This document shows, piece after piece, positions 1 to 64,000 of a stretch of DNA of 64,000 bases. The translations under genes were made by a program, and so were the position numbers. Each line of letters starts with the position of its first letter. The stretch's first letter is position 1. The notes below the pieces were generated by a model. It had not been told where the DNA came from, did no database searches, and saw only the letters and a list, made by a program, of their open reading frames with translations. The stretch is from Thiotrichales bacterium (lineage in GTDB: Bacteria; Pseudomonadota; Gammaproteobacteria; Thiomicrospirales; Thiomicrospiraceae): NCBI GenBank assembly GCA_016938655.1, contig JAFGUG010000057.1:1-64000 (forward strand), read 5' to 3'.

Positions 1-103
1 AGGCCTGCTGACTTTAACAATCTTTTTTATAAATTTTTAACCTCCCCTCTGTCTTGTTTGCCATTTATTAGGCATACTAGCCAAAAAAACGGAGCATCAA
101 ATT

Positions 104-949
104 ATGGCGAATATTCTTATTGCGGGTTGCGGCGGTATCGGCTGTGAACTGGGTGTAAAACTGGTCTCTCAAGGCCATACTGTCTATGGTTTGCGTCGTG
201 AAACCTCTGAGCTTCCAGAAGGCATTAAGGCCATTGAAGCCGACTTAGCCCACACACTAGATCCGCTTCCAGATAATTTAGATTACATTGTCTACAGTGC
301 TTCAGCAGGCAAATACAAAGACATCGCTTATTATCAGGCATACGTGTCAGGCGTAAAGCACGTTTTAGAGGCGGTCAAAGGGCAAGCGATTAAACGCTTC
401 TTTTTTGTTTCTAGCACATCCGTTTTTGGACAGTTTGAGGGGGAAGTGGTCACCGAAGAGAGCCCGACTTCTGACAGCACCTTCTCTACTCGTCGTTTAT
501 TAGAAGGTGAAAACTTAGTCAATGAGTGCCCGTTTGATAGCACCATTATTCGCTTTGGTGGCATCTACGGTCCAGGCAGAAATCATTTAATCAATTTAGT
601 ACTTGATGGCAAAGCACACTGTCTGGAGGGGGTTTACAGTAACCGCATTCACTCCAGTGATTGCGTTGGCATGTTGGCGCATTTGATTGATATGAGTGAA
701 CAAGGCAACAAAAATATTGAGTCACTCTATATTGGCGTGGACAATCAACCCACTTTGTCTTGTGAAGTGTATGAATGGTTGGCGGAGCAACTCAGTGTTT
801 CAGAAATTGAACACTCAGAACCTAAAGAACAAAGTCGCCTAATGAGTAGTAACAAACAACTTTCTAACGCCAGAATTCGCAGTACTGGCTATGAATTACT
901 TTATCCAAATTACCAAGATGGTTATAGTGAGTTAATACAAGACTTATAG
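104..949 (+). CDS. NAD(P)-binding SDR-family epimerase (YeeZ-like)
   Basis: This 281-residue protein begins with a Rossmann dinucleotide-binding motif (AGCGGIGCELG, residues 7-17). An SSTSVFGQ segment near residue 103 matches the Ser region of extended short-chain dehydrogenases. Length and layout fit the atypical SDR group that includes E. coli YeeZ, whose substrate is not established, so only a soluble NAD(P)-dependent epimerase/reductase is claimed. The ATG is preceded by GGAG at 91-94 with 9 bases spacing. The gene stands alone, converges on fxsA, and is followed by a terminator hairpin. The family is fairly sure; the substrate is unknown. Confidence 0.8.
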   Translation: MANILIAGCGGIGCELGVKLVSQGHTVYGLRRETSELPEGIKAIEADLAHTLDPLPDNLDYIVYSASAGKYKDIAYYQAYVSGVKHVLEAVKGQAIKRFFFVSSTSVFGQFEGEVVTEESPTSDSTFSTRRLLEGENLVNECPFDSTIIRFGGIYGPGRNHLINLVLDGKAHCLEGVYSNRIHSSDCVGMLAHLIDMSEQGNKNIESLYIGVDNQPTLSCEVYEWLAEQLSVSEIEHSEPKEQSRLMSSNKQLSNARIRSTGYELLYPNYQDGYSELIQDL

Positions 950-991
950 CGTTTCAGGTTTATTTCTTTAAGGGTTTATCGCTATTTAATA

Positions 992-1016
992 GAAGGGGTT
1001 ACAAGAACCCTTTTTT
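992..1016 (+). terminator. Intrinsic terminator after the SDR gene
   Basis: The stem AAGGGGTT / AACCCTT has a one-base bulge and a short loop, followed by a run of six T. It lies between the convergent SDR gene and fxsA. Confidence 0.75.
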
Positions 1017-1068
1017 ACATTGCTGGGTTTAAGCGTTTTAGTAACGATTCATATCTTTACCAGAAAGA

Positions 1069-1867: not shown

Positions 1868-4108
1868 ATGCAAACTTGGCCAAAATTCAAAACATTTTGC
1901 ACCTTACTATTTAGCTTATCGCTGCTCTTTACCCTGCCCTCGGTTCACGCTGAAGACTTGCTAGACGTTGATGATGCATTTCAACTGCAAACACCGAGCG
2001 TTGAAAACGGCAAAATCGTCATTAACTGGAAAATTGCCGACGACTATAAACTCTATAAAGACAAAATGTCCGTCACGGCAGATTCAGCGACTCTGCAAGC
2101 CCCTGAGTACTCTAAAGCCAAAATGGTGGATGACGCCTTATTTGGTAAAACCGAAGTGTATAGCAAAAGTGCTGAAATCAAAGTGGGTTATACATCCAGT
2201 TCAAACAGCACCAATTTAACGGTTAAGTACCAAGGCTGTGCCGATAAGATTGGCGTGTGCTACCCGCCACAAACTCGTAACTTTACCATCGATTTACCTG
2301 CTGTCGCTTCTGCACAAGCCAATACAAATTCTGCAAGCGCAGAAACCCCCTTTAATGCCTTAGCTGGTTTAAATGACCTGTTAGTAGAGAGCAATGGTGA
2401 ACCTGAGCTATTAGAAGCGAACGATGCGTTTAAGTTTTCAACGGAAGTCGTGAATGGCGAAATTATTGCCAATTGGGTCGTTGCACCCGATTACCACCTC
2501 TACCAAGACAAAATTAAAGTTAAGGTTGTAGATGGTAATGCAACCCTAGCGAGCTTACAACTGCCTCAAGCGGAACAAATTGATGATCCGCTTTTTGGGC
2601 AAACCATGGTTTATCACGGTCAATTTCAAGCCACGTTACCCATTACCAGCATCACAGGCTCGGCAACCATTGAATTTGAATTTCAAGGCTGTTCAGCCTC
2701 TGCGGGTGTGTGTTACCCACCGATGCAAAAAACCGTTAGCGTAAATGCGGCCGACATTAATGTTGCAAGTACCGCTACCGCATCTTTAGCAAGCGCCACC
2801 GTTAACAATCCTGAACGCTCTGAAACCGATCAAATTACCGACACACTTAAAAACAGCAGCGTGTGGATTGTGATCGCCACCTTCTTTGTGTTTGGACTGC
2901 TACTGGCTCTAACCCCTTGCGTCTTCCCAATGATTCCGATTCTATCCAGCATCATTGTTGGCCAAGGTGACCAAATAACCACGCGACGTGCCTTTGTGAT
3001 GTCGTTGGTCTATGTCCTAGCCATGTCGATTACTTATACGGTAGCCGGTGTGTTGGCAGGCCTGTTCGGTGAAAACCTACAGGCCGCCTTCCAGAACCCA
3101 TGGATCATCGGTAGTTTTGTTGCCATCTTTATTGCGCTGGCGTTCTCAATGTTTGGTTTTTACGAACTGCAACTACCAGCCAAATTGCAAACCAAACTGA
3201 CTAACCTATCCAATAAACAGCAAGGGGGTACCTTGGTGGGTGTGGGCATCATGGGCTTCTTGTCCGCACTGATTGTTGGGCCTTGTGTTGCTCCGCCACT
3301 GGCCGGTGCATTAATTTACATTGGTCAAACCGGCGATGCTCTTCTGGGGGGTACCGCACTCTTTGCTATGAGTATGGGGATGGGTCTTCCATTGCTTCTA
3401 CTTGGAACCTCAGCCGGTAAGTTCCTACCACGCGCTGGCGCTTGGATGGACAACGTTAAAGCCGTGTTTGGTGTAATGTTAATAGGTATTGCCATCTGGA
3501 TGGCGGAGCGCATTCTGCCTGCAGAAATCACGCTACTTAGCTGGGCGCTTCTATTCATCATCTCAGCGGTGTACTTAGGGGCATTTGAAAGCACCGCCGA
3601 TAAGTCAGGTTGGGTTAAACTCTTTAAAGGCTTTGGACTGGCATTAGCCCTCTATGGCGCGATGATTTTAGTTGGCCTTTTAGGCGGCAGCAATCAACTG
3701 CTTCAGCCACTAAAAGTCTTCCAAGGCGGCGGCAATGGTCAACAAGTTCAATCTGAAAAACTGAACTTCACCATTATCAAAAGCATCGAAGACCTGGACG
3801 CTGAACTGGCCAAAGGTCAACCAGTCATGCTCGATTTTTATGCTGACTGGTGTGTGAGCTGTAAAGAGATGGAAGCGTTAACCTTTAGCCAACCCATGGT
3901 GCATGACGCCCTGAAAGGGGTGACCCTTTTGAAAGCAGACGTCACTAAAAACGACGACATTGATAAAGCCTTAATGAAAAAGTTTGGCATTATTGGGCCA
4001 CCTGCGATTCTATTCTTTAAAGATCAGCAAGAGCAGAAAGCACAACGTGTGGTTGGCTTTAAAAATGCCACCGAGTTTACGGCAAACATTCAAAAATCTT
4101 TCCAATAA
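1868..4108 (+). CDS. dsbD: Thiol:disulfide interchange protein DsbD with two N-terminal domains
   Basis: DsbD carries reducing power from cytoplasmic thioredoxin across the inner membrane to periplasmic partners such as DsbC and cytochrome c maturation proteins. A signal peptide covers about residues 1-28. Two tandem copies of the periplasmic N-terminal domain follow, at about 30-145 and 180-293, each with a Cys pair (C124/C131 and C275/C282) in a QGC...VCYPP motif. The membrane domain begins near 332 and has its redox cysteines in LTPCVFP (C351) and VGPCVAPP (C473). The C-terminal thioredoxin domain has DWCVSC (C662/C665). At 746 residues it is longer than the roughly 560 of E. coli DsbD because of the extra domain. 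GAGAG lies upstream of the ATG. Confidence 0.95.
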   Translation: MQTWPKFKTFCTLLFSLSLLFTLPSVHAEDLLDVDDAFQLQTPSVENGKIVINWKIADDYKLYKDKMSVTADSATLQAPEYSKAKMVDDALFGKTEVYSKSAEIKVGYTSSSNSTNLTVKYQGCADKIGVCYPPQTRNFTIDLPAVASAQANTNSASAETPFNALAGLNDLLVESNGEPELLEANDAFKFSTEVVNGEIIANWVVAPDYHLYQDKIKVKVVDGNATLASLQLPQAEQIDDPLFGQTMVYHGQFQATLPITSITGSATIEFEFQGCSASAGVCYPPMQKTVSVNAADINVASTATASLASATVNNPERSETDQITDTLKNSSVWIVIATFFVFGLLLALTPCVFPMIPILSSIIVGQGDQITTRRAFVMSLVYVLAMSITYTVAGVLAGLFGENLQAAFQNPWIIGSFVAIFIALAFSMFGFYELQLPAKLQTKLTNLSNKQQGGTLVGVGIMGFLSALIVGPCVAPPLAGALIYIGQTGDALLGGTALFAMSMGMGLPLLLLGTSAGKFLPRAGAWMDNVKAVFGVMLIGIAIWMAERILPAEITLLSWALLFIISAVYLGAFESTADKSGWVKLFKGFGLALALYGAMILVGLLGGSNQLLQPLKVFQGGGNGQQVQSEKLNFTIIKSIEDLDAELAKGQPVMLDFYADWCVSCKEMEALTFSQPMVHDALKGVTLLKADVTKNDDIDKALMKKFGIIGPPAILFFKDQQEQKAQRVVGFKNATEFTANIQKSFQ

Positions 4109-6704: not shown

Positions 6705-6849
6705 AACCACGAAGACACGAAGGCACGAAGATAGACGTTACCTTCAAAGCCTTAAAAGTGAGCAGGCCTGCTTACTTTTAAAACGGTTTTAAAGACAAAC
6801 GTTAATAAAGAGCAATCTTTTAACTTAGTGCCTTCGTGTCTTCGTGGTT
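6705..6849. repeat. Inverted repeat element bounded by CACGAAG arrays
   Basis: The left arm is three copies of an 8-base unit (CACGAAG plus A or G) after AAC. The right arm, ending at 6849, is the reverse complement (CCTTCGTGTCTTCGTGGTT). The roughly 100-base interior contains the palindrome AGCAGGCCTGCT at 6761-6772. It sits between accC and prmA. Similar arms occur at 38.35, 38.47, 38.93, 39.35, 51.5 and 60.2-60.35 kb. Whether it is a mobile miniature element or a transcription signal cannot be told here. Confidence 0.7.
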
Positions 6850-6898: not shown

Positions 6899-7777
6899 AT
6901 GGCTTGGATTCAAATTAATATCATCGTCGAAGAAGCACTTGCTGAGCCCTTATCAGATGCCTTTATGGACGTGGGTGCCAGCTCAGTGACCTTTGAAGAT
7001 GCCAAAGACCAACCCATTTATGAACCCGAAATTGGCACCACCCCTATTTGGAATCAAACCAAGGTTATTGGCCTGTTTGACGCCGAAATGGACAGTAAAA
7101 ACATCATTGATATTTTATGTCTGCTGCACCCTAGTTTAGACAAAGAAACATTTAAGGTGGAACAGCTTGAAGATAAAGATTGGATTCGTGCGTGGATGGA
7201 CCAATTTAAACCCATGCAATTTGGCGAACGCTTATGGATTGTGCCTAGCTGGACCCAACCGCCCGAACCGAATGCTGTTAACTTAATGCTCGACCCGGGC
7301 ATGGCTTTTGGAACCGGTACGCACCCTACTACGGCACAATGTTTAACTTGGCTCGATAACCATACGCCCACCAACTTAACCGTGATTGATTATGGTTGTG
7401 GCTCTGGTGTGCTCGCCTTAGCCGCCAGTAAACTGGGAGCTAAAAGCGTTTCGGGGACCGACATCGACCCACAAGCCATTCTCGCTAGCAATCAAAATGC
7501 CGAACGAAACAACGCCGACATCCACTTTAAATTAGTCAAGGATTTTGACTCAGAACCGGTCGACCTGCTGATTGCCAATATCTTAGCGGGCCCTTTAAAA
7601 GAGCTGGCCGAAGAGTTTGATCGCTTACTTAAACCAGGCGGTACTTTGGTTTTATCAGGCCTGCTAACTTCTCAAGCAAAAGAGTTACAGGAGCACTATC
7701 AAGCTTATAATATCCACTTAGATACCTCCCTTTCGCAAGACGAATGGGGCTTATTGGCTGGTAAAAAACACGTTTAA
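6899..7777 (+). CDS. prmA: Ribosomal protein L11 methyltransferase
   Basis: PrmA trimethylates ribosomal protein L11 using S-adenosylmethionine. The 292-residue length is standard. The N-terminal L11-recognition domain (about 1-100) begins AWIQINI. The methyltransferase domain carries the PrmA signature DPGMAFGTGTHPTT, the SAM-binding motif VIDYGCGSGVLALAA, and NILAGPL. The ATG is preceded by AGGAAAC. The gene lies between accC and dusB, a common gammaproteobacterial order. Confidence 0.95.
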   Translation: MAWIQINIIVEEALAEPLSDAFMDVGASSVTFEDAKDQPIYEPEIGTTPIWNQTKVIGLFDAEMDSKNIIDILCLLHPSLDKETFKVEQLEDKDWIRAWMDQFKPMQFGERLWIVPSWTQPPEPNAVNLMLDPGMAFGTGTHPTTAQCLTWLDNHTPTNLTVIDYGCGSGVLALAASKLGAKSVSGTDIDPQAILASNQNAERNNADIHFKLVKDFDSEPVDLLIANILAGPLKELAEEFDRLLKPGGTLVLSGLLTSQAKELQEHYQAYNIHLDTSLSQDEWGLLAGKKHV

Positions 7778-8876: not shown

Positions 8877-8961
8877 ACCTAAGCTAACAGGCCTGCCAAC
8901 TTTAAATGGGTTAGCAAAACATGAATAAAAAACATACTTAACAAGCACGCTGAACAATCGA

Positions 8962-11155: not shown

Positions 11156-12448
11156 ATGAAAGTACTAATTATTGGTGGCGGCGGTCGCGAACACGCCTTA
11201 GCTTGGAAAACGGCTCAAGCAACAGACGTAACCGAGGTGTTTGTTGCACCAGGAAATGCGGGGACGGCAATTGAACCCAACCTAACGAACGTCGACATTA
11301 AAGTGGAAGACATAGCAGGCCTGGTCACTTTTGCCAAAGAAAATGCCATTGATTTAGCGATTGTGGGCCCTGAAGTGCCGTTAGTTTTAGGTGTGGTTGA
11401 TGCATTCTCTGAAGCTGGACTCAAGTGTTTTGGTCCAACGGCAGGTGCGGCACAACTGGAAGGTTCCAAAGCGTTTTCTAAAGACTTTTTAGCCAAGCAC
11501 AGTATCCCAACTGCAGCCTACGACGTATTCACAGAAATAGAACCCGCACACGCTTACTTAGAAAAAGTCGGCGTACCGATTGTGATCAAAGCGGATGGAT
11601 TAGCCGCTGGTAAAGGCGTTATTCTTGCCGATACCATGCAAGAAGCGAAAGACGCTGTCACGGATATGCTAGCGGGTAACAAGTTTGGTTCGGCGGGCGC
11701 TCGTGTCGTCATTGAGGAGTTCTTAGTCGGTGAAGAAGCCAGCTTTATTGTCATGGCAGACGGTAAAAACGTTCTTCCAATGGCCACCTCACAAGACCAT
11801 AAAGCGCGCAATAATGGTGATACGGGGCCGAATACTGGCGGCATGGGCGCTTATACCCCTGCGCCAGTAGTCACGCAAGAGATTCACGATCGTATTATGC
11901 AAACGGTTATCTACCCAACCATCGAAGGGATGGCAAAAGACGGTTTACCTTATACTGGCTTTTTATATGCCGGTGTCATGATTGATGCCAATGGTGTACC
12001 AAAAGTTCTGGAATTTAACTGTCGATTTGGCGATCCAGAAACGCAACCTATTATGATGCGTTTGCAATCCGATTTAGCCACGCTTTGTTTAGCCGCCATT
12101 GATGGCAAACTTGACACCGTGACTGCCCAATGGGATTCTCGAGCCGCTTTAGGCGTAGTAATGGCAGCAGGCGGTTACCCTGATGAATACCGTAAAGCGG
12201 ATGTCATTCATGGGTTAGACAGTGTGAATGCTGACGATCTAAAAGTATTTCACGCGGGCACGGCGTTAAACGACAAAAATGAAGTCATTACGTCGGGTGG
12301 CCGAGTGCTTTGTGTCACCGCATTAGGAAACAGCGTATCAGAAGCTCAAAAACGTGCTTATGAAGGCGTTAAAGCGGTTAACTGGGAACAGGTCTATTAT
12401 CGAACAGATATTGGTCACAGAGCAGTCAGTCGCGAACTCGCTAAATAA
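11156..12448 (+). CDS. purD: Phosphoribosylamine--glycine ligase
   Basis: PurD is the GAR synthetase of purine synthesis, an ATP-grasp enzyme. It has KVLIIGGGGREHALAWK at the N-terminus, VIKADGLAAGKGV in the ATP-grasp core, RNNGDTGPNTGGMGAYTPAP, and LEFNCRFGDPETQ with metal-binding residues. Two ATGs lie in tandem at 11153 and 11156; AAGGA at 11143-11147 is better spaced for 11156, and the family usually begins MKVLV, so I use 11156 (431 residues from the earlier start). Regulation by PurR is not visible. Confidence 0.95.
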   Translation: MKVLIIGGGGREHALAWKTAQATDVTEVFVAPGNAGTAIEPNLTNVDIKVEDIAGLVTFAKENAIDLAIVGPEVPLVLGVVDAFSEAGLKCFGPTAGAAQLEGSKAFSKDFLAKHSIPTAAYDVFTEIEPAHAYLEKVGVPIVIKADGLAAGKGVILADTMQEAKDAVTDMLAGNKFGSAGARVVIEEFLVGEEASFIVMADGKNVLPMATSQDHKARNNGDTGPNTGGMGAYTPAPVVTQEIHDRIMQTVIYPTIEGMAKDGLPYTGFLYAGVMIDANGVPKVLEFNCRFGDPETQPIMMRLQSDLATLCLAAIDGKLDTVTAQWDSRAALGVVMAAGGYPDEYRKADVIHGLDSVNADDLKVFHAGTALNDKNEVITSGGRVLCVTALGNSVSEAQKRAYEGVKAVNWEQVYYRTDIGHRAVSRELAK

Positions 12449-14899: not shown

Positions 14900-17467
14900 T
14901 TAAAGGAAGGTTAACCCATTATCGTCAGTATCCATGCTAATAGTAGAGTTACTTAAAAACTCACCTTTAAGTATTTTTTGCGCCAATGGATTTTCAACTT
15001 TTTGCTGGATGACTCGTTTTAAAGGTCTGGCACCGTAAACCGGATCAAACCCCACTTCGCCTAATAAATCCAATGCGTTATCTGAAATCGTCAAATCCAA
15101 ATCGGCATGTTGCAAGCGTTTACGCAAGCCTTCAAGCTGAATCGCCGTGATCGCACGAATCTGCTCACGACCTAACGGATGGAACACCACAATTTCATCA
15201 ATTCGGTTAATGAATTCGGGTCGAAAATGACCGCCTACCACCTCCATGACATCGGCTTTCATCTCTTCGTAACTGGCCACGCCGGCTTTTTCTTGAATAA
15301 TCTGCGAGCCTAAGTTCGAGGTCATCACAATCACGGTGTTTTTAAAGTCCACCGTACGCCCTTGCCCATCGGTCAATCGCCCATCGTCTAACACTTGTAA
15401 CAAAATATTAAAGACATCAGGATGTGCCTTCTCGACCTCATCCAACAAAATAACCGAATACGGTTTACGGCGCACGGCTTCGGTTAAATAACCACCTTGT
15501 TCATAACCCACATAGCCCGGAGGCGCACCAATCAAACGGGCGACCGAATGTTTCTCCATAAACTCAGACATATCTAATCGAACAATCGACTCTTGGGTGT
15601 CAAATAGGAAGTCCGCTAAGGCTTTAGTTAGTTCCGTTTTACCGACACCCGTAGGCCCTAAGAACAAGAAAGATCCATTCGGGCGATTGGGTTCTGACAG
15701 GCCTGCTCGTGAGCGACGAATGGCATCCGAAACCGCCGTCACCGCTTCTTGCTGACCGACTACCTGTTTTTGCAAAACCTCTTCCATGCGCAATAACTTT
15801 TCACGTTCGCCCTCTAACATTCTAGAAACCGGAATCCCTGTCCACTTAGCAACCACTTCCGCAATTTCTTCTTCGGTTACCTTATTACGAAGTAAATGAA
15901 GGGTTTGTCCCTCGTCATCCACTTCGGCCAATTCTGCGGCTTTAATTTTGCCTTCCAGCTCTGGAATCGTACCGTATTGCAACTCCGACATTTTGGCCAG
16001 ATTACCTTCACGTCTTGCCGCTTCCATCTCTATGCGAGCATGATCGAGTGCTTCTTTATATTGCTGAGCCCCTTGCAGAGCGGCCTTGTCTTTTTTCCAA
16101 ATCTCATCGTAGTCGGAGTACTCTTTTTCAAGCAGTGCAATTTGATCTTTTAAATCTTCCAACCGTTTTTTAGAGGCCGCATCTTTCTCTTTCTTAAGCG
16201 CTTCACGCTCAATTTTCAGTTGAATCAGACGACGATCTAACTTATCCATCTCTTCAGGTTTAGAGTCAATCTCCATACGAATACGTGACGCCGCTTCATC
16301 AATCAGATCAATTGCTTTATCGGGCAACTGGCGATCGGAGATATAACGCTGCGATAACTGAACCGCGGCCACAATCGCCGGGTCGGTAATGTCCACCCCA
16401 TGATGCACTTCGTAACGCTCTTTTAAACCACGTAAAATGGCCACGGTATCCTCTTCGGTGGGTTCATCCACTAGAACCTTTTGAAAACGTCTTTCTAAGG
16501 CGGCATCTTTTTCAATGTATTGACGATACTCATCCAGCGTAGTTGCCCCCAAACAATGCAACTCACCGCGTGCCAACGCGGGTTTAAGCATATTACCGGC
16601 GTCCATTGCACCATCCGATTTACCGGCGCCGACCATGGTGTGAATTTCATCAATAAACAGAATCACCTGACCTTCATTTTTAGCTAAGTCACTCAATACC
16701 GCTTTTAATCGCTCTTCAAACTCGCCACGGTATTTTGCACCCGCTAACAGCGCACCTAAATCTAACGACAAAACACGCTTATTACGCAGACCTTCCGGCA
16801 CCTCACCATTCACAATACGTTGTGCAAGCCCTTCCACAATTGCGGTTTTACCGACACCTGGTTCACCAATCAGCACGGGGTTATTTTTAGTACGGCGCTG
16901 TAAAACTTGAATCGCACGACGAATTTCATCGTCACGTCCAATCACAGGGTCTAACTTACCTTGCTCAGCACGTTCGGTCAGGTCAATGGTATATTTTTCT
17001 AACGCTTGACGTGTCTCTTCTGCATTTTGATTCATCACGTTTTCATCTCCACGGACTTTTTGAATGGCTTGTTCCAAGGCTGTTTTATTGGCTCCGGCCT
17101 GTTTTAATAAATCAGCCACGGTGTCATTGGATTCCAGTGCCGCCACAAAAAACAGTTCACTGGCGATATACGCATCGCCCTGTTTCTGTGCAGCCTTATC
17201 CATTAAGTTTAAAATCTGTCCCGATTTTTGCGACAGCTGAACATCGCCCGCGTTGCCGCTTACCTTCGGCATAGTTTGCAATTTAGCTTGAACAGCGGTG
17301 CGTAATGTCGAGACATTCACTTGGGCTAACTGCAAAAGTTGCGATTGCTCTTCTAACAATGCCGCCAAGATATGCACCGGCTCAATAAACTGATTGTCTT
17401 GACCGACCGCAATCGATTGCGCTTTGCCTAAGACCGACTGAAACTGGGTAGTAAATTTATCCATCAT
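14900..17467 (-). CDS. clpB: ATP-dependent disaggregase ClpB
   Basis: ClpB pulls proteins out of aggregates together with DnaK. The 855-residue protein has the Clp N-domain (1-150), first AAA domain with Walker [10 protein letters not shown] (201-209), the coiled middle domain (about 410-530), and the second AAA domain with Walker [10 protein letters not shown] (about 600). The C-terminal end ([13 protein letters not shown]) is normal. AGGAG lies 9 bases before the ATG. It is monocistronic, with a heat-shock-like promoter candidate upstream. Confidence 0.97.
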
Positions 17468-19052: not shown

Positions 19053-19076
19053 AAACTTAGCAGGCCTGCTAAGTTT
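19053..19076. repeat. Perfect 24-bp palindrome centred on GCAGGCCTGC
   Basis: The core GCAGGCCTGC at 19060-19069 is extended by AAACTTA / TAAGTTT. As RNA it would form a 10-bp stem with a GGCC loop followed by a T-rich run, so it can be a terminator for either convergent gene. Confidence 0.85.
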
Positions 19077-32331: not shown

Positions 32332-34512
<2,181 letters not shown>

Positions 34513-41609: not shown

Positions 41610-41627
41610 CCAACAGGCCTGCCAAGT

Positions 41628-42509: not shown

Positions 42510-42917
42510 AATGGGGTTGTTGATTGCCTGATTCGTTGAATTGAAATGTGTCGTCGTGTTTAAGCTTGTGTTGATTTTATGTTCATTTTCGAGCGCTAGT
42601 GTAATCAATTCCAGTTAATTTACCTTTGAATAAAGGTTGAGTTGCGTTGAGAAGCGCTGAGTTAAGTTTATTTCAGATTGGTCTTAGAAATCGACAGGCC
42701 TGTTGATTTTAAAAAAAACTTCAATCATTTAAACAAATTCAAGTACTTATAAAATAACCAAGCAAAAGAGTTGGTTATTTATTTACACAATCGATTTAGC
42801 TTGGTAGTATCTATAAAAATTATTAATGAAATACCGGTTCAAACCCCACTATACAACGCACGTAAAACCCTTCGCCCTTTAAACAATCGGCGATCACGTA
42901 ACCTGAGGCAAGTACGA

Positions 42918-48476: not shown

Positions 48477-48510
48477 TTTTAAAAGTCAGCAGGCCTGCTT
48501 ACATTTAAAA
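48477..48510. terminator. GCAGGCCTGC-centred hairpin between mrpG and the COG0523 gene
   Basis: TTTTAAAAGTCAGCAGG is roughly mirrored by CCTGCTTACATTTAAAA, with core GCAGGCCTGC at 48489-48498. It is the only hairpin in the 57-base convergent gap, so it is the likely bidirectional terminator. Confidence 0.65.
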
Positions 48511-49741: not shown

Positions 49742-50018
49742 GAGAACAGCTTTAATATATTGAGTCTAATAAATAATGGAAAAACAGTTTAGCACATCCC
49801 ACTTTTTTGTTATTTAACGTTACTTTGGTTTACGAGAAAGTGAGCAGGCCTGCTGTCTTTAAAAAAGTGGCTGCGTAAATCTTTATTACTGGGGAAATGC
49901 CCCTTTTGTAAGGAAATCTTGATTTCTCTTACCGTAGGAAGCGGCCGGGGTAATGCTTGAGGGTATAAATACAGAAATTTGAGAGGCTTTGAAATCAGAA
50001 ATAAAAGCCATTTAATTA
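49742..50018. other. Upstream region of the COG0523 gene, no gene seen
   Basis: This region holds one AGCAGGCCTGCT palindrome (49843-49854) and no convincing coding frame. No zinc-regulator (Zur) box was recognised. Confidence 0.45.
49843..49854. repeat. GCAGGCCTGC palindrome upstream of the COG0523 gene
   Basis: A perfect 12-base AGCAGGCCTGCT flanked by AAAGTG / GTCTTT. Confidence 0.85.
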
Positions 50019-50933: not shown

Positions 50934-51458
50934 TTATTTGGCTTCTTCTGCCTGCTTGGCTTTCTTCAACGCACGCGGTTTCAAAACCAACTCGGACAAA
51001 ATCAACAGGCCTGCTCCGGCGGTAATGGCCATGTCGGCCACGTTAAACGTGGCGTAGTGCCAAGTGCCGATGTAGAAGTCCACAAAGTCGGTGACGCGCC
51101 CCTCTAGCACTCGGTCGATGACGTTTCCTATGGCGCCCCCTAACACCAAGTTAATGCCGATGGTTTCCACATTGAGTTTATTGGGTAACTTTTTAAGCCA
51201 CCAGACTAAAATCACGGTCACAAAGGTGGCCAGTGCGGTAAAGAACCAACGCTGCCAACCGCCCATATCGGCCAAAAAGCTAAAGGCTGCACCGTAGTTG
51301 AAGGCCAACGTCCAGTTTAGGTTGGGCATAACCGCAACCGGCTCGCCAAACACCAAGGTATCGACCGCCCACATTTTAGTCAGCTGATCAATAATAATGA
51401 CGATGACCGCTAACCAAAGGGTTTTAACGGCGGTTGAACTTAATGTATTTTCTGACAT
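50934..51458 (-). CDS. lspA: Lipoprotein signal peptidase
   Basis: LspA cuts the signal peptide from diacylglyceryl-prolipoproteins in the inner membrane. The 174-residue protein has four hydrophobic segments and the two catalytic Asp in GNVIDRVLEGRVTDFVDFY. The substrates in this window would include the patatin lipoprotein. It follows ileS at a distance of 234 bases that hold two hairpin elements, which is unusually long for this normally tight operon. Confidence 0.95.
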   Translation of the reverse strand: MSENTLSSTAVKTLWLAVIVIIIDQLTKMWAVDTLVFGEPVAVMPNLNWTLAFNYGAAFSFLADMGGWQRWFFTALATFVTVILVWWLKKLPNKLNVETIGINLVLGGAIGNVIDRVLEGRVTDFVDFYIGTWHYATFNVADMAITAGAGLLILSELVLKPRALKKAKQAEEAK

Positions 51459-51692: not shown

Positions 51693-54527
51693 TTAGGCAA
51701 AGTGTCTAACTTCACCCTCTCCAGACTCATCAATGTTATCCACACAACGCTGACAAAGTTCTGGATGCTCGGCAATCTGCCCCACCTCTTCACGATGATG
51801 CCAACAACGGGCACACTTGGTTTTTTCGGTGGCACCAGCCGAAATCCACAGGCCTGCTAACTCTGACTGAACCGCATCATCGGCTTTTTCAGACAGTGGC
51901 TTTAAGGCTGCATCCGAGGTAATCAACACGAAACGCAGTTCGTCTTGCAGTGCGTTGAGGTTGTTAAACAAACCATCATCACAGTACAAGGTGACTTCGG
52001 CGGTTAATGAGCCTTTAATGACTTTGTCGTTACGTAACTGTTCAAGCTGTTTTGACACCGCAGAACGCACGGCAATTAACTGATCCCAATAGGCGGAGTT
52101 CATTTCCACGCTTTCGTCTAATTCGGTTAGACCTTCGTACCACGTTGAAACAAAGATGGTTTTGTCATGCTCACCGGGAATATCCACCCAAATTTCTTCA
52201 GCGGTAAAGCTTAGAATTGGGGCAATCCAACGGGTTAAGGCTTCCACAATGTGATACAACGCCGTTTGCGCCGAACGACGTGCCAAGCCTTCGGTTTTGC
52301 AGGTGTATTGACGGTCTTTAATCACGTCTAAATAGAACGAGCCTAACTCAACCGAACAGAAGTGCGTGACCGCTTGGTAGATGGCATGAAAATTGTATTC
52401 GTCATACGCCGCTAAGACCTCTTTCTGGATTTTAGCCGCGTGACCAATCGCCCATTTATCTAAGGGTAACAGGTCTTCATACGCCACTGCATCGGTGGCT
52501 GGGTTAAAGCCGTTTAAGTTAGCCAATAAGAAACGTGCGGTGTTACGAATACGACGATACGAATCCGCAGTTCGGCTGATGATTTCGTCCGACACGGTCA
52601 TCTCATAACGGTAGTCGGCAGCAGAGATCCACAGACGTAAAATATCTGCGCCGTACTTGTTGGCAATCTCTTGCGGCGCAACCACGTTGCCTTTTGATTT
52701 AGACATTTTTTTACCGTCTTTATCAACCGTAAAACCGTGGGTTAGCACTTGTTTGTAAGGCGCTTCGCCTGATGTAGCAAGCGCGGTTAACAGTGAAGAC
52801 TGGAACCAACCACGGTGCTGATCCGACCCTTCTAAATAGAGGTCAGCGGGTGAATGCAACTCTTCACGCTCGTCTAGCACGGTGAAGTGTGAGATGCCCG
52901 AATCAAACCAAACATCAAGAATATCGGTGACTTGTTCGTAGTCGTCGGCTTCGTCGCCCAACAGACTTTCTACGTCTAGGTCGTACCAAGCATCAATGGA
53001 GTTGACCTCCACTAACTTAGCCACTTCTTCCATTAACTCAATGGTACGTGGGTGCATCTCTTGGGTGACTTTGTGTACAAAAATGGTAATTGGCACACCC
53101 CAGAAACGCTGACGTGAAATACACCAATCCGGACGCCCTTCAATCATGCCTTCAATACGGTTTTGACCCCACTCTGGAATCCACTCGACATTTGGTATCG
53201 CCTTAGTCGCTTTATCGCGCAGACCGGCTTCGGTCATGGAAATAAACCACTGTGGCGTGGCGCGGAAAATCAAGGGGGTTTTCGTACGCCAGCAGTGTGG
53301 GTAGCTGTGCTCGATAATTTCGATGTGCACCAGCGCGTTGTGTTCTTTTAACACTTCAAGCACGTGGTCATCGACCTTAAGCACGTTTTCGCCTTCAAAA
53401 ATCGGCGTGCCAGCGACGTAGTTACCGTTACCGTCAACAGGGCAATCGATGTCTAAGTCGTAAAGTTTACCGACGTTAAAGTCGTCAACCCCGTGCGCCG
53501 GTGCGGTGTGTACACAACCCGTACCGGCTTCAGTGGTGACGTGTTCACCTAAAATAATTGGCACAATACGCTCGTAAAAAGGGTGTTGTAAACGAATCAA
53601 ATCAAACTGCTCACCGCGCCCGTAAGCTATAACCTGATATTTATCAAAGCCCCATTTGTCCATGGTGTCTTTTATCATCGCTTCGGCAATAAACAGACGC
53701 TCAGGACCGTTTTCGCCTTCCACTTGCACCACAGAGTATTCCAGTTCTGGGTTAATGGAAACCGCTTGGTTAGCCGGTAACGTCCAAGGCGTGGTTGTCC
53801 AGATGACCACCGATAATGGGCCTTCACCGGTGTGGTCTTCAACATGATGACAACGCTTAAAGAACTGTTCTTCGTCAAGCACTTTAAAACGCACATCAAT
53901 CGATTTTGAGCGTTTGTTTTCGTATTCCACTTCGGCTTCGGCCAAGGCAGAACGCCCGCCAACTGACCAGTAAACCGGCTTGGTGCCTTTTACCAAGTGA
54001 CCATTTTGGATGATTTTAGCCAGCGCACGAATCTCGTTGGCTTCAAATTTAAAGTCTTTGGTTAGGTAGGGGTTTTCCCAGTCGGCCATAATACCCAAAC
54101 GTTGGAAGTCGGCCATCTGCCCTTCTACTTGCGTTTGCGCGTATTTACGGCACTCTTCACGGAATTCTGTGGCACCAATTTTTTGACCGACCTTGCCTTT
54201 TTTCTTCTCTACGTTCAGTTCAATCGGCAGACCGTGACAATCCCAACCCGGCACAAAGGGGGCATCAAACCCGCTTAGGCCTTTTGACTTAACGATCATG
54301 TCTTTTAGGACTTTGTTAACCGCATGCCCAATGTGAATGTTACCGTTTGCGTAAGGAGGACCATCATGCAAAATAAACTTAGGGCGACCGGCCATGTGCT
54401 CGCGCACGGTTTGGTAAAGGCCTTGCGCTTGCCAATCGGCAACTTGCTTAGGCTCACGGTTTGGCAAGCTTCCACGCATTGGAAAGTCGGTTTCAGGTAA
54501 GTTTAAAGTGGGTTTATAGTCAGTCAT
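51693..54527 (-). CDS. ileS: Isoleucyl-tRNA synthetase
   Basis: IleS charges tRNA-Ile. The protein (944 residues from 54527) has the HIGH motif in [13 protein letters not shown], the KMSKS motif in [10 protein letters not shown], the editing domain around [15 protein letters not shown], and a C-terminal zinc site ([10 protein letters not shown]...CQRC). The frame extends to 54596, but [19 protein letters not shown] is the family N-terminus and GAAGAG precedes that ATG, so I use 54527. ribF, ileS and lspA are in the conserved order. Confidence 0.97.
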
Positions 54528-54561
54528 GCTCTTCTCTTCGTTGGAGATTAACGGGAAACGT

Positions 54562-55515
54562 TTAAATATTAAAAAATTGTTTTGCGGTTTCGGCATCGAG
54601 TTGTATTTGGTTTTTCAACATCTCAAGGCCATCAAATTTCATCTCTGGGCGAATGTGTTTTTCTAAAGTTACATCCACATGTTTGCCGTATAGGTCTTGG
54701 TTCCAGTTAAACAGATGCACCTCTATCGAAGGTCTTACTCCGTCTACCGTTGGGCGTAATCCTAAATTAGCCACGCCCGGCCAAGGTTGCTCAGCAATGC
54801 CATCGACGGTCACGGCATACACACCCATCACCGGCATTTGCAACCGTTTTGGGTTTAGGTTTAAGGTTGGAAAGCCGATGGTTCGGCCTAATTTTTGGCC
54901 GTGAATCACCCGCCCATTAAACTTAAACGGTTTGCCCAATAAATCTTGTGCTTCATCTAAATCGGGCTTTGCTAAGGCAGCGCGAACTCGAGTACTGCTG
55001 ACACGATGCCTAAAGTTTTCACTGCACTCCACGCCATAGGTTGGCATATCAGTCACGCTAAATCCATGCTGTTGACCTTGCTGATTTAGGTAAGCAAAAT
55101 CGCCTTTGCGCTGCTTGCCAAAACGGAAATCGTCACCCACCACCAAGTGCTTAACATTCAATCCGTCCAACAGCACCTGCTCAACAAATTGCTGTGCACT
55201 GAGGCCTGCGAATTTTGCATTAAAACGAACCAGCAACACATAGTCAATGTCTGTGGTTTGAAAGGCCTGCAATTTCTCACGCAGATTCATCAAACGCACA
55301 GGGGCTTGGTTGGGCGCAAAAAACTCAATCGGCAAGGGTTCAAACATCATCACAACGCTAGGTAAATTGCGCTTTTTGGCCTCGGATATCACGGCCTGCA
55401 ACACCTGCTGATGGCCTAAGTGCAGACCATCAAAGTTACCAATGGTTAGCACACAGCCTTTTGACCGCGCTTGCTTAACCAAATCCAAGTTGTGTAAACC
55501 GCGAATTAACTGCAT
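54562..55515 (-). CDS. ribF: Bifunctional riboflavin kinase / FAD synthetase
   Basis: RibF makes FMN and FAD from riboflavin. The 317-residue protein has the nucleotidyltransferase motif [39 protein letters not shown], and the kinase domain [20 protein letters not shown]. It is the first gene of the ribF-ileS-lspA cluster; murJ, often adjacent, is separated from it here by a PEP-CTERM gene on the other strand. Confidence 0.95.
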
Positions 55516-56720: not shown

Positions 56721-58253
56721 TTAGCCTTTTTTCAAAATCGATTTTGGATTCAAACCCACCAGCATTAACGACACTGCATACACCAAAATCGAGCCAAACA
56801 CCAAGCCCATTAACCAACTCATACGCTGCCAAACATCAAACCCTAGCCAATCGCTGATATTAGGGGAAACCATAATAATAAAGGCCACCAACAGTACATT
56901 TGCAAACGCAATTTGCAGAAGCAACTTAATCCAACCACCCATTGGGGCAAACACGCCCTGTTTAGTGATATACCAATACAGCAGGCCTGCATTGACAAAC
57001 GCCGAGATGGACGTTGCAGCGGCTAAGCCAACGTGCGCAAACGGGCCAATTAAAATCAAGTTCATAATAATATTCGTCACTAAGGCGATAATCGCCACTT
57101 TAACGGGTGTTTTCATGTCTTTGCGCGCGTAAAACGCCGGTGCAAGAATCTTAACTAAAATAAACCCAAGTAAGCCAAACGAGTAAGCCATTAAACTCAT
57201 ACCCGCCATATCGACATCGTGCGCCGTAAAAGCGCCATAATAGAACAAGCTAATAATTAACGGTTGTGCCAATAACAACAAACCTAAGGTCGCAGGCAGC
57301 GCAATAATAAACACCAAACGTAACGCCGAATCTAAGTCTTGTTGAAAGCCTTGCCAGTTTTCATTCGCCGCCTTTTTCGACAGGCCTGGTAACACCACGG
57401 TGGCCAAAGCCACGCCAAACACGCCTAATGGAAATTCCATTAATCGGTCGGAGTAGTACAACCAAGAGACCGAACCGGTCACCAAAAACGAAGCCAAAAT
57501 GGTGTCAACCAACAAGTTAATTTGCGCCACCGACACCCCAAATAGCGCCGGAATCATCAAACGTTTTACTTCGCCTACGCCCGGATCACTCTCACGTGTT
57601 GGACGTGGCAACAAGTCTAATTTATAAAGAAACGGCAGATGGAATAGTAGCTGCACCACACCCGCGACCAACACCCCCCAAGCCAGCGCCATAATAGGCA
57701 CATCCATCATTGGCGAAACCCAAACTGCAAAGGTAATCAGTACCAAGTTCAGAAACACTGGGGTAAACGCTGGCACGGCAAATTGATTGTAGGTGTTCAT
57801 AATGGCGGAGGATAACGCCACCAACGAAATAAGCATCAGATACGGAAAAGTAATCGCCAACATATCGGCGGCCAGGTTAAATTTTTCAGGGTCGTCAATA
57901 AAACCCGGTGCAAACACCATCATCCACAACGACGATCCAAACACCCCAAACGCGGTGAGCAACAAGAGAATACCGCCCAGCCGCAAGGTAATGGCGTTCA
58001 CCAAATGTTTAACGGCATCGTGACCCCGCTTCTCTTTGGCTTCCGCCAAAACCGGTACAAACGCTTGCGAAAACGCCCCCTCGGCAAACAATCTGCGGAA
58101 AAAGTTGGGGATTTTAAACGCCACAAAAAACGCATCTGCGCCCGTTCCCGCACCAAAGTAACGGGCAATAATCACATCACGGGCAAACCCTAAAATACGT
58201 GAAATCATGGTCATGCCACCGACGGTAACGGTGGCTTTAATTATTCTTTTCAA
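56721..58253 (-). CDS. murJ: Lipid II flippase MurJ
   Basis: MurJ moves lipid II across the inner membrane for peptidoglycan synthesis. The 510-residue protein has about 14 hydrophobic segments. The family start RIIKATVTVGGMTMISRILGFARDVIIARYFGAG, FRRLFAEGAFSQAFVPVLAE and the DTILASFL region are visible. Two sites of the palindrome family, a full GCAGGCCTGC at 56981 and CAGGCCTG near 57381, lie inside the coding region. Confidence 0.95.
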   Translation of the reverse strand: MKRIIKATVTVGGMTMISRILGFARDVIIARYFGAGTGADAFFVAFKIPNFFRRLFAEGAFSQAFVPVLAEAKEKRGHDAVKHLVNAITLRLGGILLLLTAFGVFGSSLWMMVFAPGFIDDPEKFNLAADMLAITFPYLMLISLVALSSAIMNTYNQFAVPAFTPVFLNLVLITFAVWVSPMMDVPIMALAWGVLVAGVVQLLFHLPFLYKLDLLPRPTRESDPGVGEVKRLMIPALFGVSVAQINLLVDTILASFLVTGSVSWLYYSDRLMEFPLGVFGVALATVVLPGLSKKAANENWQGFQQDLDSALRLVFIIALPATLGLLLLAQPLIISLFYYGAFTAHDVDMAGMSLMAYSFGLLGFILVKILAPAFYARKDMKTPVKVAIIALVTNIIMNLILIGPFAHVGLAAATSISAFVNAGLLYWYITKQGVFAPMGGWIKLLLQIAFANVLLVAFIIMVSPNISDWLGFDVWQRMSWLMGLVFGSILVYAVSLMLVGLNPKSILKKG

Positions 58254-60170: not shown

Positions 60171-60171
60171 T

Positions 60172-60199
60172 TAAAACCCAGCAGGCCTGCTGGTTTTTT
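60172..60199. terminator. GCAGGCCTGC-centred hairpin after the acetolactate synthase gene
   Basis: AAAACCCAGCAGG / CCTGCTGGTTTT with one unpaired base and a T run directly after the stop codon; core at 60181-60190. It has the form of an intrinsic terminator. Confidence 0.75.
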
Positions 60200-60832: not shown

Positions 60833-60847
60833 AATCTAAGCGATAAA

Positions 60848-61306: not shown

Positions 61307-61331
61307 TAATTCAAAAATTTAACGCGACTGA

Positions 61332-62180
61332 TTAAGCTTGTTTACGACGACGTGCCATAAACCCAACCAACCCTAAACCAGCTAGCATTAATGCATAAGT
61401 TGAAGGTTCTGGAACCGCAGAAATGTTTTCTATTGGAGAAATAGCCGACAGAACCATTGCTTCGTCATTCACACATGCCATTGTTAAGTAGGTTGCAATG
61501 TTTGCGCCCTCTTCAGCATTGAAACCGATACTTGCTAAGTCAAACTGACCTTCTAGAACATTATCATCGCTATTATCAAAATAGGTCCATAGACCGGAAA
61601 ATGAATCGACAACCGTTGCGTTAGTCATTTGGTAAGTTTGCGACACATGACCAGCAAGATTAGAGTAAATATTTGCTTCCGTCCAAGTGCCGCCGGTTAA
61701 TAAGTTGAATTCTGCAACCCCAGTCTGGTCATTCACACTCAAAAGCTCTATTGCGTAGTTAAATCCAGCAGAAGAGGTGGTTGGATCAGGTATACCTGCA
61801 TTTAAGTCAAAATCTTGAATGCTTAGAGCAATGTGCCCTAAATCAATTCCCTGAGAACGATCTTGACCACTTAGGATTGAACCGCCAACTAAACCAAACT
61901 GAAACATAGTATCGGTTACGCTTGTACCTAAATAGTTTATGTCCCAATCATCCCCAGTACTTGCATCATCGTACTCTTGGTTTTCACCGTTTGCATAGTC
62001 AATTGAATCAGGGTCGTTGGCATAGTTACCTTGGGTCATCCATTCAGAGGAACCTTCGGCACCATCAGTGCTCCAAGTATATTCACCGCCGCCAAGGGTA
62101 ATTTGACCATCAATGTCCGCGGCCATTGAGGTTGAAGAAAATAAAGCGCTTGCCGCCAAAATAAGGAGTGCATTTTTCAT
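61332..62180 (-). CDS. PEP-CTERM sorting domain protein 2
   Basis: This 282-residue secreted protein has a signal peptide (LLILAASALFSSTSMA, residues 4-20 or so) and a C-terminal sorting signal VPEPSTYALMLAGLGL followed by VGFMARRRKQ, almost identical to that of the protein at 55.8 kb. The middle is acidic and Gly/Asn/Asp-rich, with no recognised domain and no clear similarity to the other PEP-CTERM protein. AGGAA precedes the ATG. Confidence 0.87.
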   Translation of the reverse strand: MKNALLILAASALFSSTSMAADIDGQITLGGGEYTWSTDGAEGSSEWMTQGNYANDPDSIDYANGENQEYDDASTGDDWDINYLGTSVTDTMFQFGLVGGSILSGQDRSQGIDLGHIALSIQDFDLNAGIPDPTTSSAGFNYAIELLSVNDQTGVAEFNLLTGGTWTEANIYSNLAGHVSQTYQMTNATVVDSFSGLWTYFDNSDDNVLEGQFDLASIGFNAEEGANIATYLTMACVNDEAMVLSAISPIENISAVPEPSTYALMLAGLGLVGFMARRRKQA

Positions 62181-62446
62181 TTTAAAATTCCTGTATATAA
62201 ATATATGAATTTAAAAATGCAGTCCAGCCAACTCAGTTAAATCTGTAAACAAAGTTCTGTAACTTTCCGTCCCTTACTCACGCAAGGTTTAGCTTTCTTT
62301 TTAAAGTTGAGTGTATTTTAAGTGAGTCATAAAAATTAGATATTGTACGAAAGGACAATTTTGAGGGTTGGTGTCTTAAAAAGCGTTAACAGTTCTAAAT
62401 AAACTTTTAAATATTGGCCTACTCAAAGTGAGCAGGCCTGCTTAAT
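62181..62446. other. Upstream region of PEP-CTERM gene 2
   Basis: No gene was seen. It includes AGCAGGCCTGCT at 62431-62442, next to the universal stress gene stop, and must hold the promoter of PEP-CTERM gene 2. No shared promoter motif with PEP-CTERM gene 1 was recognised by eye. Confidence 0.4.
62431..62442. repeat. GCAGGCCTGC palindrome after the universal stress gene
   Basis: A perfect 12-base AGCAGGCCTGCT with AAAGTG / TAATTT flanks, 5 bases past the stop codon of the minus-strand gene. Confidence 0.85.
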
Positions 62447-63385
62447 TTATAGAATGGGGGATTTAAACGTGTTGGGTTTAATCGCCAATACCGAGCAATT
62501 AACCCGTTCTAATAAGTCTTCCGCGGTATTACCAATCAACAGGCCAGGGACCCCGCTTCTGCCTAATGTGCCCAACACCAATAAATCGATATTTTGCTCA
62601 AGCACGGTTGCTGCAACCGCATCGGCCGGATCGCCTTTTCGTAAAAAAACCTCTGCACTTGACGGCTCTAAACCATGCGCGGTAAGTTCTATACTCAAAG
62701 CCTGCTTATGTTCTAGATAGAGTTGTTCGCTTAGTTTAATCAACTCATCATCGGTTAAATCGGTATTCCAATGTCGTACGAGGTTTTCAACCTCCGACTG
62801 CCAAGCATGCACCACCTTAATAGGCTCGCTGCCTTTAAAATGCGTTGCCCAACCAAGGAGGCTTTGATTGAACTCGGATGACGAATACGGTGGTGCTTCA
62901 ATATCCACATCTAAACTTGCCATAATTCGCTCAAATGGCAGTGGCGTATTTTCTCGATACAACAAAAGCGGCACCGGGCTTTTTCTTAACAGGTGCCAAT
63001 CGACACTTTGAAACATTAAGTTTCCCTGATGCTTGATGTCGTCCGTTTGCTTAATCAACAATTCTACGTTTAGTTCGTGGGCCAGTTGAATGGTCTCATA
63101 AAAAAACTTCCCAAAACGCACCACAATGTTTAAATCAACTTGCGCGTTTTCTGCCATATCAAACCACTTTTGACGCCGTTGAGTTTCGTAGTCAATTTGC
63201 TCTTGCAAAATATTAGGATGATTCAACATTTCAAACCACTCAAATACCGAGTGACCCAACTTAGGTAGCACGGTTACCAAAGTGAGTTTAATGTTCTGTT
63301 GGCGACAACAGTCAATCGCCCACTCAAATAGTGCCGTTTCCTGATCAGGATGTAATGAAGCAAACAACCAAGTTTTATCAGTCAT
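62447..63385 (-). CDS. Tandem universal stress protein (UspA family)
   Basis: This 312-residue protein has two Usp domains (about 1-145 and 160-308). The second keeps the ATP-binding glycine motif LVLGTLGRSGVPGLLIGNTAEDLL; the first is degenerate. Tandem Usp proteins of the UspE kind act in stress survival. GGAGAG precedes the ATG. It lies 61 bases after the antiporter gene on the same strand, so the two may be co-expressed. Confidence 0.88.
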   Translation of the reverse strand: MTDKTWLFASLHPDQETALFEWAIDCCRQQNIKLTLVTVLPKLGHSVFEWFEMLNHPNILQEQIDYETQRRQKWFDMAENAQVDLNIVVRFGKFFYETIQLAHELNVELLIKQTDDIKHQGNLMFQSVDWHLLRKSPVPLLLYRENTPLPFERIMASLDVDIEAPPYSSSEFNQSLLGWATHFKGSEPIKVVHAWQSEVENLVRHWNTDLTDDELIKLSEQLYLEHKQALSIELTAHGLEPSSAEVFLRKGDPADAVAATVLEQNIDLLVLGTLGRSGVPGLLIGNTAEDLLERVNCSVLAIKPNTFKSPIL

Positions 63386-63446
63386 AAAGTGTCTCTCCAG
63401 ATTAACCGTTTATTGTTTAAAACTGAGTGTACGTTCTTCCACTAGC

Positions 63447-64000
63447 CTAATAATTTACAATTTTTTGCACCGCTTCAATCGCAGCGTCCTCATAGGGGAT
63501 CAGCACCAAGTCAGCCCCTTGACTTTTATAAAAATCCGCCTCAGTTTGATTTTTAGCCGCCACGGCCACTTTGCCTGCAAACCCCTCTTGTCGGAGCGTC
63601 TTTAACAACGCTAAATTAGTGTGCTTATCACGAATTGTGGCCACCACCCACTGAGCTTGATGCAGAGGTAAATGCGAAACAAACTCAGGGTCTTCGGCAT
63701 CCCCATAGCGTGTGTTTAAGTCATGATTAGCAACTTTCTCAACAAATTCAGGGTTAAAGTCCACACCTAAAATACTAAAATTCTTCTCTTGTAGATTATT
63801 GGCCATTACCAAACCAAACCGCCCTAAACCAAACAAAATAATATCGGTTTTCATGGTTGTATTTTCATGGTCCAATTCGGCTTCACGATACGGCACTTTT
63901 CGTTCAAAAATAGATAGGTAAGGCGCCAGACGTTCGTACAGCGGATACGAATATAAAATCATGTACGTAGAAACCGAAATGGTAATTAACCCAACCAACG
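63447..64000 (-). CDS. Cation:proton antiporter (CPA2 / Kef type), C-terminal part
   Basis: Only the C-terminal part is in the window; the gene runs off the right edge. The visible part starts in the last membrane segment (LITISVSTYMILYSYPLYERL) and continues into a TrkA-N (RCK) NAD-binding domain with DIILFGLGRFGLVMANNL. LGVDFNPEFVEK and ATIRDKHTNLALLK fit the domain. These transporters exchange K+ or Na+ for protons. The exact type (KefB, YbaL) cannot be told from this fragment. Confidence 0.82.
   Translation of the reverse strand, partial: LVGLITISVSTYMILYSYPLYERLAPYLSIFERKVPYREAELDHENTTMKTDIILFGLGRFGLVMANNLQEKNFSILGVDFNPEFVEKVANHDLNTRYGDAEDPEFVSHLPLHQAQWVVATIRDKHTNLALLKTLRQEGFAGKVAVAAKNQTEADFYKSQGADLVLIPYEDAAIEAVQKIVNY

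Follow-up and report, generated by a model that had tools for sequence, protein, structure and literature searches.

Two kinds of short, genome-wide repeat come closest to the element considered here. The DNA uptake sequences (DUS) of the Neisseriaceae and the uptake signal sequences (USS) of the Pasteurellaceae are described (PMC3630211, PMC5217627, PMC12616744, PMC1939737) as strongly over-represented words with genic and intergenic copies, as having family dialects around a fixed inner core, and as being reused in terminator hairpins. The highly iterated palindrome HIP1 of cyanobacteria and the alternate HIPs are likewise iterated short palindromes, replaced in some species by palindromes of their own (PMC4390886). 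The element described here is the palindrome CAGGCCTG, which recurs through a 64,000-nucleotide stretch of a sulfur-oxidizing Thiotrichales bacterium of the family Thiomicrospiraceae (the window; positions 1 to 64,000 of contig JAFGUG010000057.1, assembly GCA_016938655.1). It shares the features listed for DUS and USS, a likeness drawn here from sequence, and differs from them in its host family and in being palindromic in 33 of 35 high-copy carriers. Unlike HIP1, which is centered on GATC, it is centered on GGCC, has outer A-tracts in the window's species, includes an asymmetric dialect, resides in a gammaproteobacterial family, and has no constant methyltransferase partner among the PF00145 and PF01555 matches found here. 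Below, G numbers denote genomes (G000 is the assembly of the window's species), and L numbers denote sampled stretches or loci of relatives.

The iterated palindrome is real. All 14 starts of the ten-mer GCAGGCCTGC given in the initial annotation are exact, and none of 100 shuffles reaches that number (mean 0.04). The seven listed starts of CAGGCCTGC are exact too, but an eighth, at 7656, was overlooked, as were three cores in the opposite orientation (3057, 11316, and 43999) and another four that lack both extensions (22039, 42695, 47288, and 57381); the window total is 29 CAGGCCTG cores (Table 1). On the contig containing the window (279,554 bases), the core is found 135 times, the ten-mer 78 times, and the twelve-mer AGCAGGCCTGCT 53 times, where an order-2 Markov model predicts about 3, 0.2, and 0.01, respectively, and the runner-up among 48 palindromic 8-mers of similar composition has 10 copies. 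The whole G000 assembly (2.93 Mb) contains 1,173 eight-mers, 596 of them as the ten-mer, and the reversed control words occur twice and not at all, respectively. Genome-wide counts are thus far from expectation, and shuffles, Markov model, and control words together rule out chance or base composition as the origin of CAGGCCTG. High iteration therefore holds, as does the proposed likeness to HIP1 in form, that of a short iterated palindrome far over expectation; the repeated unit proper is the 8-mer, and the ten-mer is its commonest form in the window's species. Spacing of the cores on the window contig has a coefficient of variation of 1.07, vs. 0.98 (standard deviation (sd) 0.08) under random placement, and the variance-to-mean ratio in G042 is 0.75 over ten stretches.

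Among 62 Thiomicrospiraceae genomes, 32 carry 236–1,173 copies of CAGGCCTG and 30 carry 0–74 (14 in the low-count genome G055). The carriers comprise 15 of 32 genomes in the window's genus (g1), all nine in g5 (840–1,128 cores each), 7 of 11 in g6, the single one in g3, and none of the nine in three other genera. The spelling ANCAGGCCTGNT has 697 copies in G000, 522 in G035, and 3 in each of two low-count family members; its maximum outside the family is 22 copies in 365 gammaproteobacterial genomes. The ten-mer, at 596 copies, is largely a trait of G000: its highest count is 97 in 31 other g1 genomes and 252 in the drawn genomes from the rest of the family. The nearest relatives by PurH are Thiomicrospira and Thiotrichales metagenome-assembled genomes (MAGs), not the cyanobacterial hosts of HIPs; the nearest named one, the MAG Thiomicrospira sp. 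WV30_bin5 (PurH 95%), has six cores in 15.9 kb at that locus and no ten-mer. Among the genomes searched, the signal is confined to the family, and, like an uptake signal, it is strongly over-represented in its own and related genomes. The literature matches listed contain no description of the CAGGCCTG or GCAGGCCTGC motif, and the literature search found nothing pairing a DNA uptake sequence with Thiomicrospira.

The signal has dialects, which a single window could not reveal and which alter the interpretation offered in the initial annotation. G023 has 12 copies of CAGGCCTG but 1,217 of CCGGCCGG, a word that elsewhere among the 62 genomes reaches at most 159, in a genome where the control word counts 148; in the sample of G023, ACCGGCCGGT is the main form (57 of 69 sites). 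A third spelling, the asymmetric hybrid AACAGGCCGG, occurs 659 times in G020 and 383 times in G004, the two high-copy carriers without a palindrome, and its fuller form in G020, AAAcTcAACAGGCCGGGT, joins the left side of the usual dyad to a right half resembling that of G023. The core CAGGCCGG is exactly one base change away from either palindrome and so has the appearance of a transitional form between dialects, a comparison of spellings that carries no direction. Copies of AACAGGCCGG in G020 are split 337 forward to 322 reverse, and 26 run along genes vs. 31 against them; a location both within and between genes with no preferred strand, judged for strand on this asymmetric dialect, is a further feature of uptake signals. 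All three spellings are found within one genus, and GGCC is common to them all, which is the pattern of family dialects around a fixed inner core. At the fifth base from the center, G occupies 74% of half-sites in G000, G and C are about equal in G042 and G035, C prevails in most other carriers sampled, and G025, G005, and G017 are mixed or have A; many of these calls come from species with a single stretch and 1–14 sites each, and L203 (all N) was dropped from the tabulation.

No comparable word stood out in 120–140 kb each of G003, G013, G019, and G031, nor in 14 further low-count genomes, although samples of 4–20 kb, as used for the latter, could miss a weaker dialect; the top GGCC-containing word in those short samples was AAGGCCGC in G010 (9 vs. 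1.6 expected). Low-count genomes G029, G032, G041, G044, G048, G049, and G096 lay outside this sampling, and G004, G037, and G038 contributed less than 2 kb each. Other repeats are present in the relatives. G019 (L127–L129 and L141–L144) has about 96–99 copies in 140 kb of a repeat containing AGGCAGCTAAGAAA, which resembles a type I-F CRISPR array, and words with 27–28 copies in 20 kb of G053 (L170; AGACCTAGCC and its neighbors) probably also belong to a repeat array. Runs of C/G are over-represented in G016 (L166; CCCCCCCC, 33 vs. 2.5 expected in 20 kb) and in G001 (L162; 7 vs. 0.8 expected in 9.6 kb). In G042 (L110–L119), GGATATCC, unrelated to the dyad, is mildly enriched (8 sites vs. about 1.4).

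The core is sharply defined. Relative to a background model trained with the motif masked, one-mismatch forms of the 8-mer occur at 0.99–1.39 times expectation here and at 0.81 and 0.96 in two low-count genomes; a known uptake signal used as control, that of Haemophilus and Rodentibacter (Pasteurellaceae), gave 0.90–1.05 over five loci in the same script. The initial annotation had proposed looking for conserved positions in relatives, and these are found in part. Both alignable window cores (7656 and 11316) are kept in L016, but fewer are kept in other relatives: one of two in L019, none of one in L017, and none of three in L018, which is coreless over 21.6 kb. Three intergenic window cores cannot be aligned with L016, and for two L016 cores the matching position of the window has none.

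Tentatively, and at somewhat less than an even chance, we read CAGGCCTG and its flanks as a self-recognition signal acting like a DNA uptake sequence, palindromic though it is. About a thousand copies, confinement to one family, dialects, presence both in genes and at gene ends, reuse in hairpins, and a sharp core are, on our analysis, together uptake-signal-like. Density agrees with such a signal too, and so do, in the window's species, the A-rich tracts 10–12 bases from the center. We infer a protein reader, an uptake function, and molecular drive as the cause. A sequence-specific protein would read the signal as duplex DNA, a receptor of the type IV pilus or competence machinery would prefer DNA bearing it, and repeated uptake and recombination would multiply it until it stood roughly once in every 2 kb, genic and intergenic. 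Recognition would be by half-sites around the fixed GGCC, with paired CAGG halves in most carriers, paired CCGG halves in one species, and one half of each kind in two others. An outer AAAnT tract would belong to the site in the window's species and some relatives, and not in G042, and intergenic copies with complementary arms would additionally be kept as RNA hairpins in the window's species. The broader proposition is more doubtful and falls further below even: that this would be a further family-wide uptake system beside those of the Pasteurellaceae and Neisseriaceae, the first on a palindrome, with half-sites around GGCC, in chemolithoautotrophic sulfur bacteria, and with CAGG-CCGG as a living intermediate between CAGG-CCTG and CCGG-CCGG.

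Several observations weigh against an uptake signal. Described uptake sequences are non-palindromic (PMC1939737 and PMC12616744), a form that CAGGCCTG does not have, and its palindromic footprint would fit a homodimer inside the cell no less well than a pilin. ComEC is present in 31 of the 32 carriers and also in 25 of the 30 genomes with fewer than 75 copies and therefore does not separate carriers from others. A profile search for GspH across the 62 genomes matched three, all low-count, and a search for PilQ gave no match over the curated cut-off: carrier G009 had none, and carriers G042 and G054 had weak matches only (best E 4.9e-17 and 1.6e-16). Four of the PilQ loci were inspected by eye for gene order and N-termini, and the secretin of three lies amid what look like type II secretion genes. 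(A search for PilY1 found no matches anywhere, controls included, and is uninformative.) These searches thus found no receptor, and the evidence from the machinery is weak. Nor does sharpness of the core point to uptake in particular: HIP1 was not part of the same-script comparison, and the published table of Bakkali gives an excess of about 11-fold for both the uptake word and the HIP1 ten-mer, under another expectation model (PMC1939737). Ten-mer spellings, whose outer bases are looser, have a one-mismatch excess of 5.4-fold in G023 and 3.0-fold in G020. The outer A-tracts are absent in G042 and are therefore not general. Lastly, the literature matches listed include no transformation data for Thiomicrospiraceae.

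The main alternative, possible though in our view unlikely, is that the dyad is the binding site of an abundant dimeric protein, chromosome-organizing or regulatory, that has some thousand sites and whose changes the dialects would track. A protein-binding dyad had been offered in the initial annotation; it is compatible with the data and unspecific. The shape of the site suits such a protein: folded on its center, the average intergenic copy in G000 reads AAAnTnAGCAGGCCTGCTnAnTTT, a unit of about 24 bp in the window's species with dyad symmetry and A-rich tracts 10–12 bases to either side, about one helical turn from the center. Genic copies have the same outer preferences, more weakly, and G025 shares the tracts, whereas G020 has one on a single side; little is conserved past about 17 bases from the center. 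The long perfect palindromes reported at 19.06 kb (24 bp) and 27.32 kb (26 bp) are present as described. Exact matches to the full dyad number 13 on the window contig, four of them inside the window; no contig of the viral collection matches that exact pattern, and seven match a looser C-dialect pattern. The asymmetric hybrid of G020 and G004 is awkward for a homodimer, and the motif is absent in species of the same genus.

Gene placement cuts both ways for such a protein. Genes were called by a simple hexamer-scoring script rather than a published gene finder. Intergenic DNA, 14.7% of the whole window contig, holds 66 of its 135 cores (5.6-fold, P 6e-21), and 26 of these 66 lie in convergent junctions, which make up 17% of intergenic bases (P 1.4e-5); densities per kb are 3.73 in convergent, 1.33 in tandem, and 0.98 in divergent intergenic DNA and 0.29 within genes. 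Cores fall within 70 nt past stops in three of the five species examined more often than expected (G000, 37 of 66 intergenic sites vs. 18.1; G025, 14 of 25 vs. 4.2; G023, 17 of 36 vs. 6.3), where control of supercoiling or read-through could act. Ratios of intergenic to genic density are 4.1 in G023 and 2.7 in G025, but 1.10 in G042 and 1.19 in G035, members of another genus, in which 84 of 104 and 43 of 55 sites, respectively, are genic and convergent sites are few (4 and 5), yet at 1.60 and 1.88 per kb. A preference for gene ends is therefore a property of some species and does not define the motif. Genic cores also make up 69 of 135 in G000, 33 of 69 in G023, and half or more in G025. The concentration at gene ends noted initially thus stands for the window's species and not as a general property, the two carriers of the other genus having no preference for intergenic DNA. 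Within the window, six of nine convergent junctions have a core (five a ten-mer, one a nine-mer), for which the original count of six plus a half site was slightly high, and the site at 56981 falls inside a called gene, not between genes.

We regard as improbable a backbone modification (phosphorothioate, Dnd) or other non-methyl modification of GGCC-centered sites that marks self DNA. In its favor, GGCC is a phosphorothioate core in Streptomyces; against it, phosphorothioate sites are not known to build up as long dyads or to have dialects. Very improbable, in turn, is a HIP1-like origin, in which an orphan methyltransferase acting on GGCC or AGGCCT, together with methyl-directed repair, would make and keep the sites. 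By the conclusion of Elhai (PMC4390886), every cyanobacterial genome with highly over-represented sequences has a putative matching methyltransferase, and G000 has four PF00145 and two PF01555 matches. Here, PF00145 is missing from 21 of the 32 carriers, and 13 of the 32 match neither PF00145 nor PF01555 (adenine-only families not searched); of these 13, 11 are at least 99% complete, and 4 are single-contig. The methylation site suggested in the initial annotation is disfavored by those 13. G023 and G020 match neither family either, the CCGGCCGG core has no adenine, and an asymmetric spelling is ill-suited to a type II methyltransferase. The G000 methyltransferase matches, on contigs C11, C32, C75, C97, and C99, exceed those in most relatives; contamination of the bin is 7.7%.

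There is similarly little probability that the main role of the sites is to terminate transcription in both directions, selection at gene ends having spread them. The intergenic and convergent excess in G000 would suit such a role, and so would the arms of the intergenic copies, whose covariation, pointed out in the initial annotation, is borne out on the window contig: at positions ±5 to ±14, 380 pairs are seen vs. 346.8 expected (sd 8.2), with none of 3,000 shuffles as high. Genic copies have no significant excess over the same columns (241 vs. 231.4, sd 10.7, P 0.20), nor do intergenic arms at ±15 to ±24 show one; two of the three copies in a repeated block were excluded from these tests. 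Six intergenic window sites were folded, and five give the dyad hairpin (−7.7 to −14.5 kcal/mol), matched or bettered in 0 (6.76 kb), 0 (19.06 kb), 5 (27.32 kb), 10 (48.49 kb), and 28 (60.18 kb) of 200 shuffles. Because the intergenic arms covary, these copies in the window's species probably serve also as RNA hairpins. The hairpins at gene ends are followed by T, but their stems are weak, with few G-C pairs, and a consensus terminator scan of 18–28 kb called none of its four cores (it called a separate stem just past the 27.32-kb site). Intergenic sites of G042, G025, G023, and G035 show no significant covariation (P 0.18–0.68) in four columns (7, 9, 13, and 14) that were chosen after seeing the G000 data, unlike the unpicked columns 5–14. 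The 14 stop-proximal sites of G025 pair slightly over shuffles (P 0.039), but so do its genic sites (P 0.035), and the genic half of the G000 sites and about 80% of those in G042 and G035 are out of place for terminators. The terminator function proposed initially therefore looks secondary: hairpins are present at gene ends, but termination is probably not the main role.

Repetitive extragenic palindromes (REP), bacterial interspersed mosaic elements (BIME), and intrinsic terminators share intergenic hairpins and covarying arms with the copies in the window's species, but the conserved unit here is shorter, and a large share of copies is genic; with regard to REP or mobile elements, the column profile shows little shared flank, save in one repeated block. 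Chi and the FtsK-orienting polar sequences (KOPS) are also short genome-wide words, but they are polar, strand-biased signals, and a signal of that kind is excluded by the symmetry of the motif and by the lack of strand bias of its asymmetric dialect.

The repeated block occupies one convergent junction after a thiamine gene (window 38310–39392), with three copies ending in CTTCGTGGTTCAAATAAAAAATCAGCAGGCCTGCTT, and further stretches of that junction recur within it. Positions 27418–32028 of the window encode a 1536-amino acid protein with CheB, CheR, PAS, GGDEF, and EAL domains. Outside the window, the largest core-free gap on the contig is 17.8 kb (P 0.019; contig C3, 162757–180508, L100 and L101) and spans genes for RuBisCO, CsoS2, CsoSCA, and bacterial microcompartment (BMC) shell proteins with their neighbors; this carboxysome stretch may have been acquired or may be more tightly constrained. 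Table 1 lists the sites of the window.

Table 1. The 29 cores of the window, with their gene context, folding, and retention in relatives.
Position	Strand	Form	Context
3057..3064	.	core CAGGCCTG	in dsbD-like gene 1868..4108
6762..6771	.	ten-mer	intergenic after accC-like gene; full dyad 6755-6778; hairpin −14.5 kcal/mol
7656..7663	.	core	in gene 6899..7777; aligned place kept in relative L016
7850..7859	.	ten-mer	intergenic, tandem
8888..8895	.	core	intergenic; center 15 bases past a stop
11316..11323	.	core	in purD; aligned place kept in L016 and L019, not in L017 or L018
15698..15705	.	core	in gene 14900..17467
19060..19069	.	ten-mer	convergent junction; perfect 24-bp palindrome; hairpin −10.9 kcal/mol
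22039..22046	.	core	in rlmKL-like gene
23450..23459	.	ten-mer	in rlmKL-like gene; local RNA fold no better than shuffles
27319..27328	.	ten-mer	convergent junction; perfect 26-bp palindrome; hairpin −12.2 kcal/mol
32416..32423	.	core	intergenic, divergent
32846..32855	.	ten-mer	in thiC; local RNA fold no better than shuffles
38498..38507	.	ten-mer	first of three in repeated block of convergent junction
38999..39008	.	ten-mer	second of three in repeated block
39378..39387	.	ten-mer	third of three in repeated block
39660..39667	.	core	in gene 39393..39989
41614..41621	.	core	convergent junction
42695..42702	.	core	intergenic, divergent
43999..44006	.	core	in gene 42918..45674
47288..47295	.	core	in NADH:quinone oxidoreductase/Mrp antiporter-like gene
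48489..48498	.	ten-mer	convergent junction; hairpin −7.7 kcal/mol
49844..49853	.	ten-mer	intergenic, tandem
51006..51013	.	core	in gene 50934..51458
51849..51856	.	core	in gene 51693..54596
56981..56990	.	ten-mer	in gene 56721..58214
57381..57388	.	core	in gene 56721..58214
60181..60190	.	ten-mer	convergent junction, directly past stop; hairpin −9.8 kcal/mol
62432..62441	.	ten-mer	intergenic, tandem; competing fold beats dyad hairpin

To our knowledge, uptake signals with dialects have been described in only two bacterial families, and how such signals originate is an old question. Several carriers are single-contig genomes, probably from isolates, so the proposed uptake function should lend itself to a direct test. 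Should the reader prove to be a chromosome protein, the dyads would constitute a new architectural system of a thousand sites. A palindromic signal with three spellings, present in some and absent from other members of a single genus, and with a hybrid among them, would offer in the Thiomicrospiraceae a natural series for the coevolution of recognition and signal.

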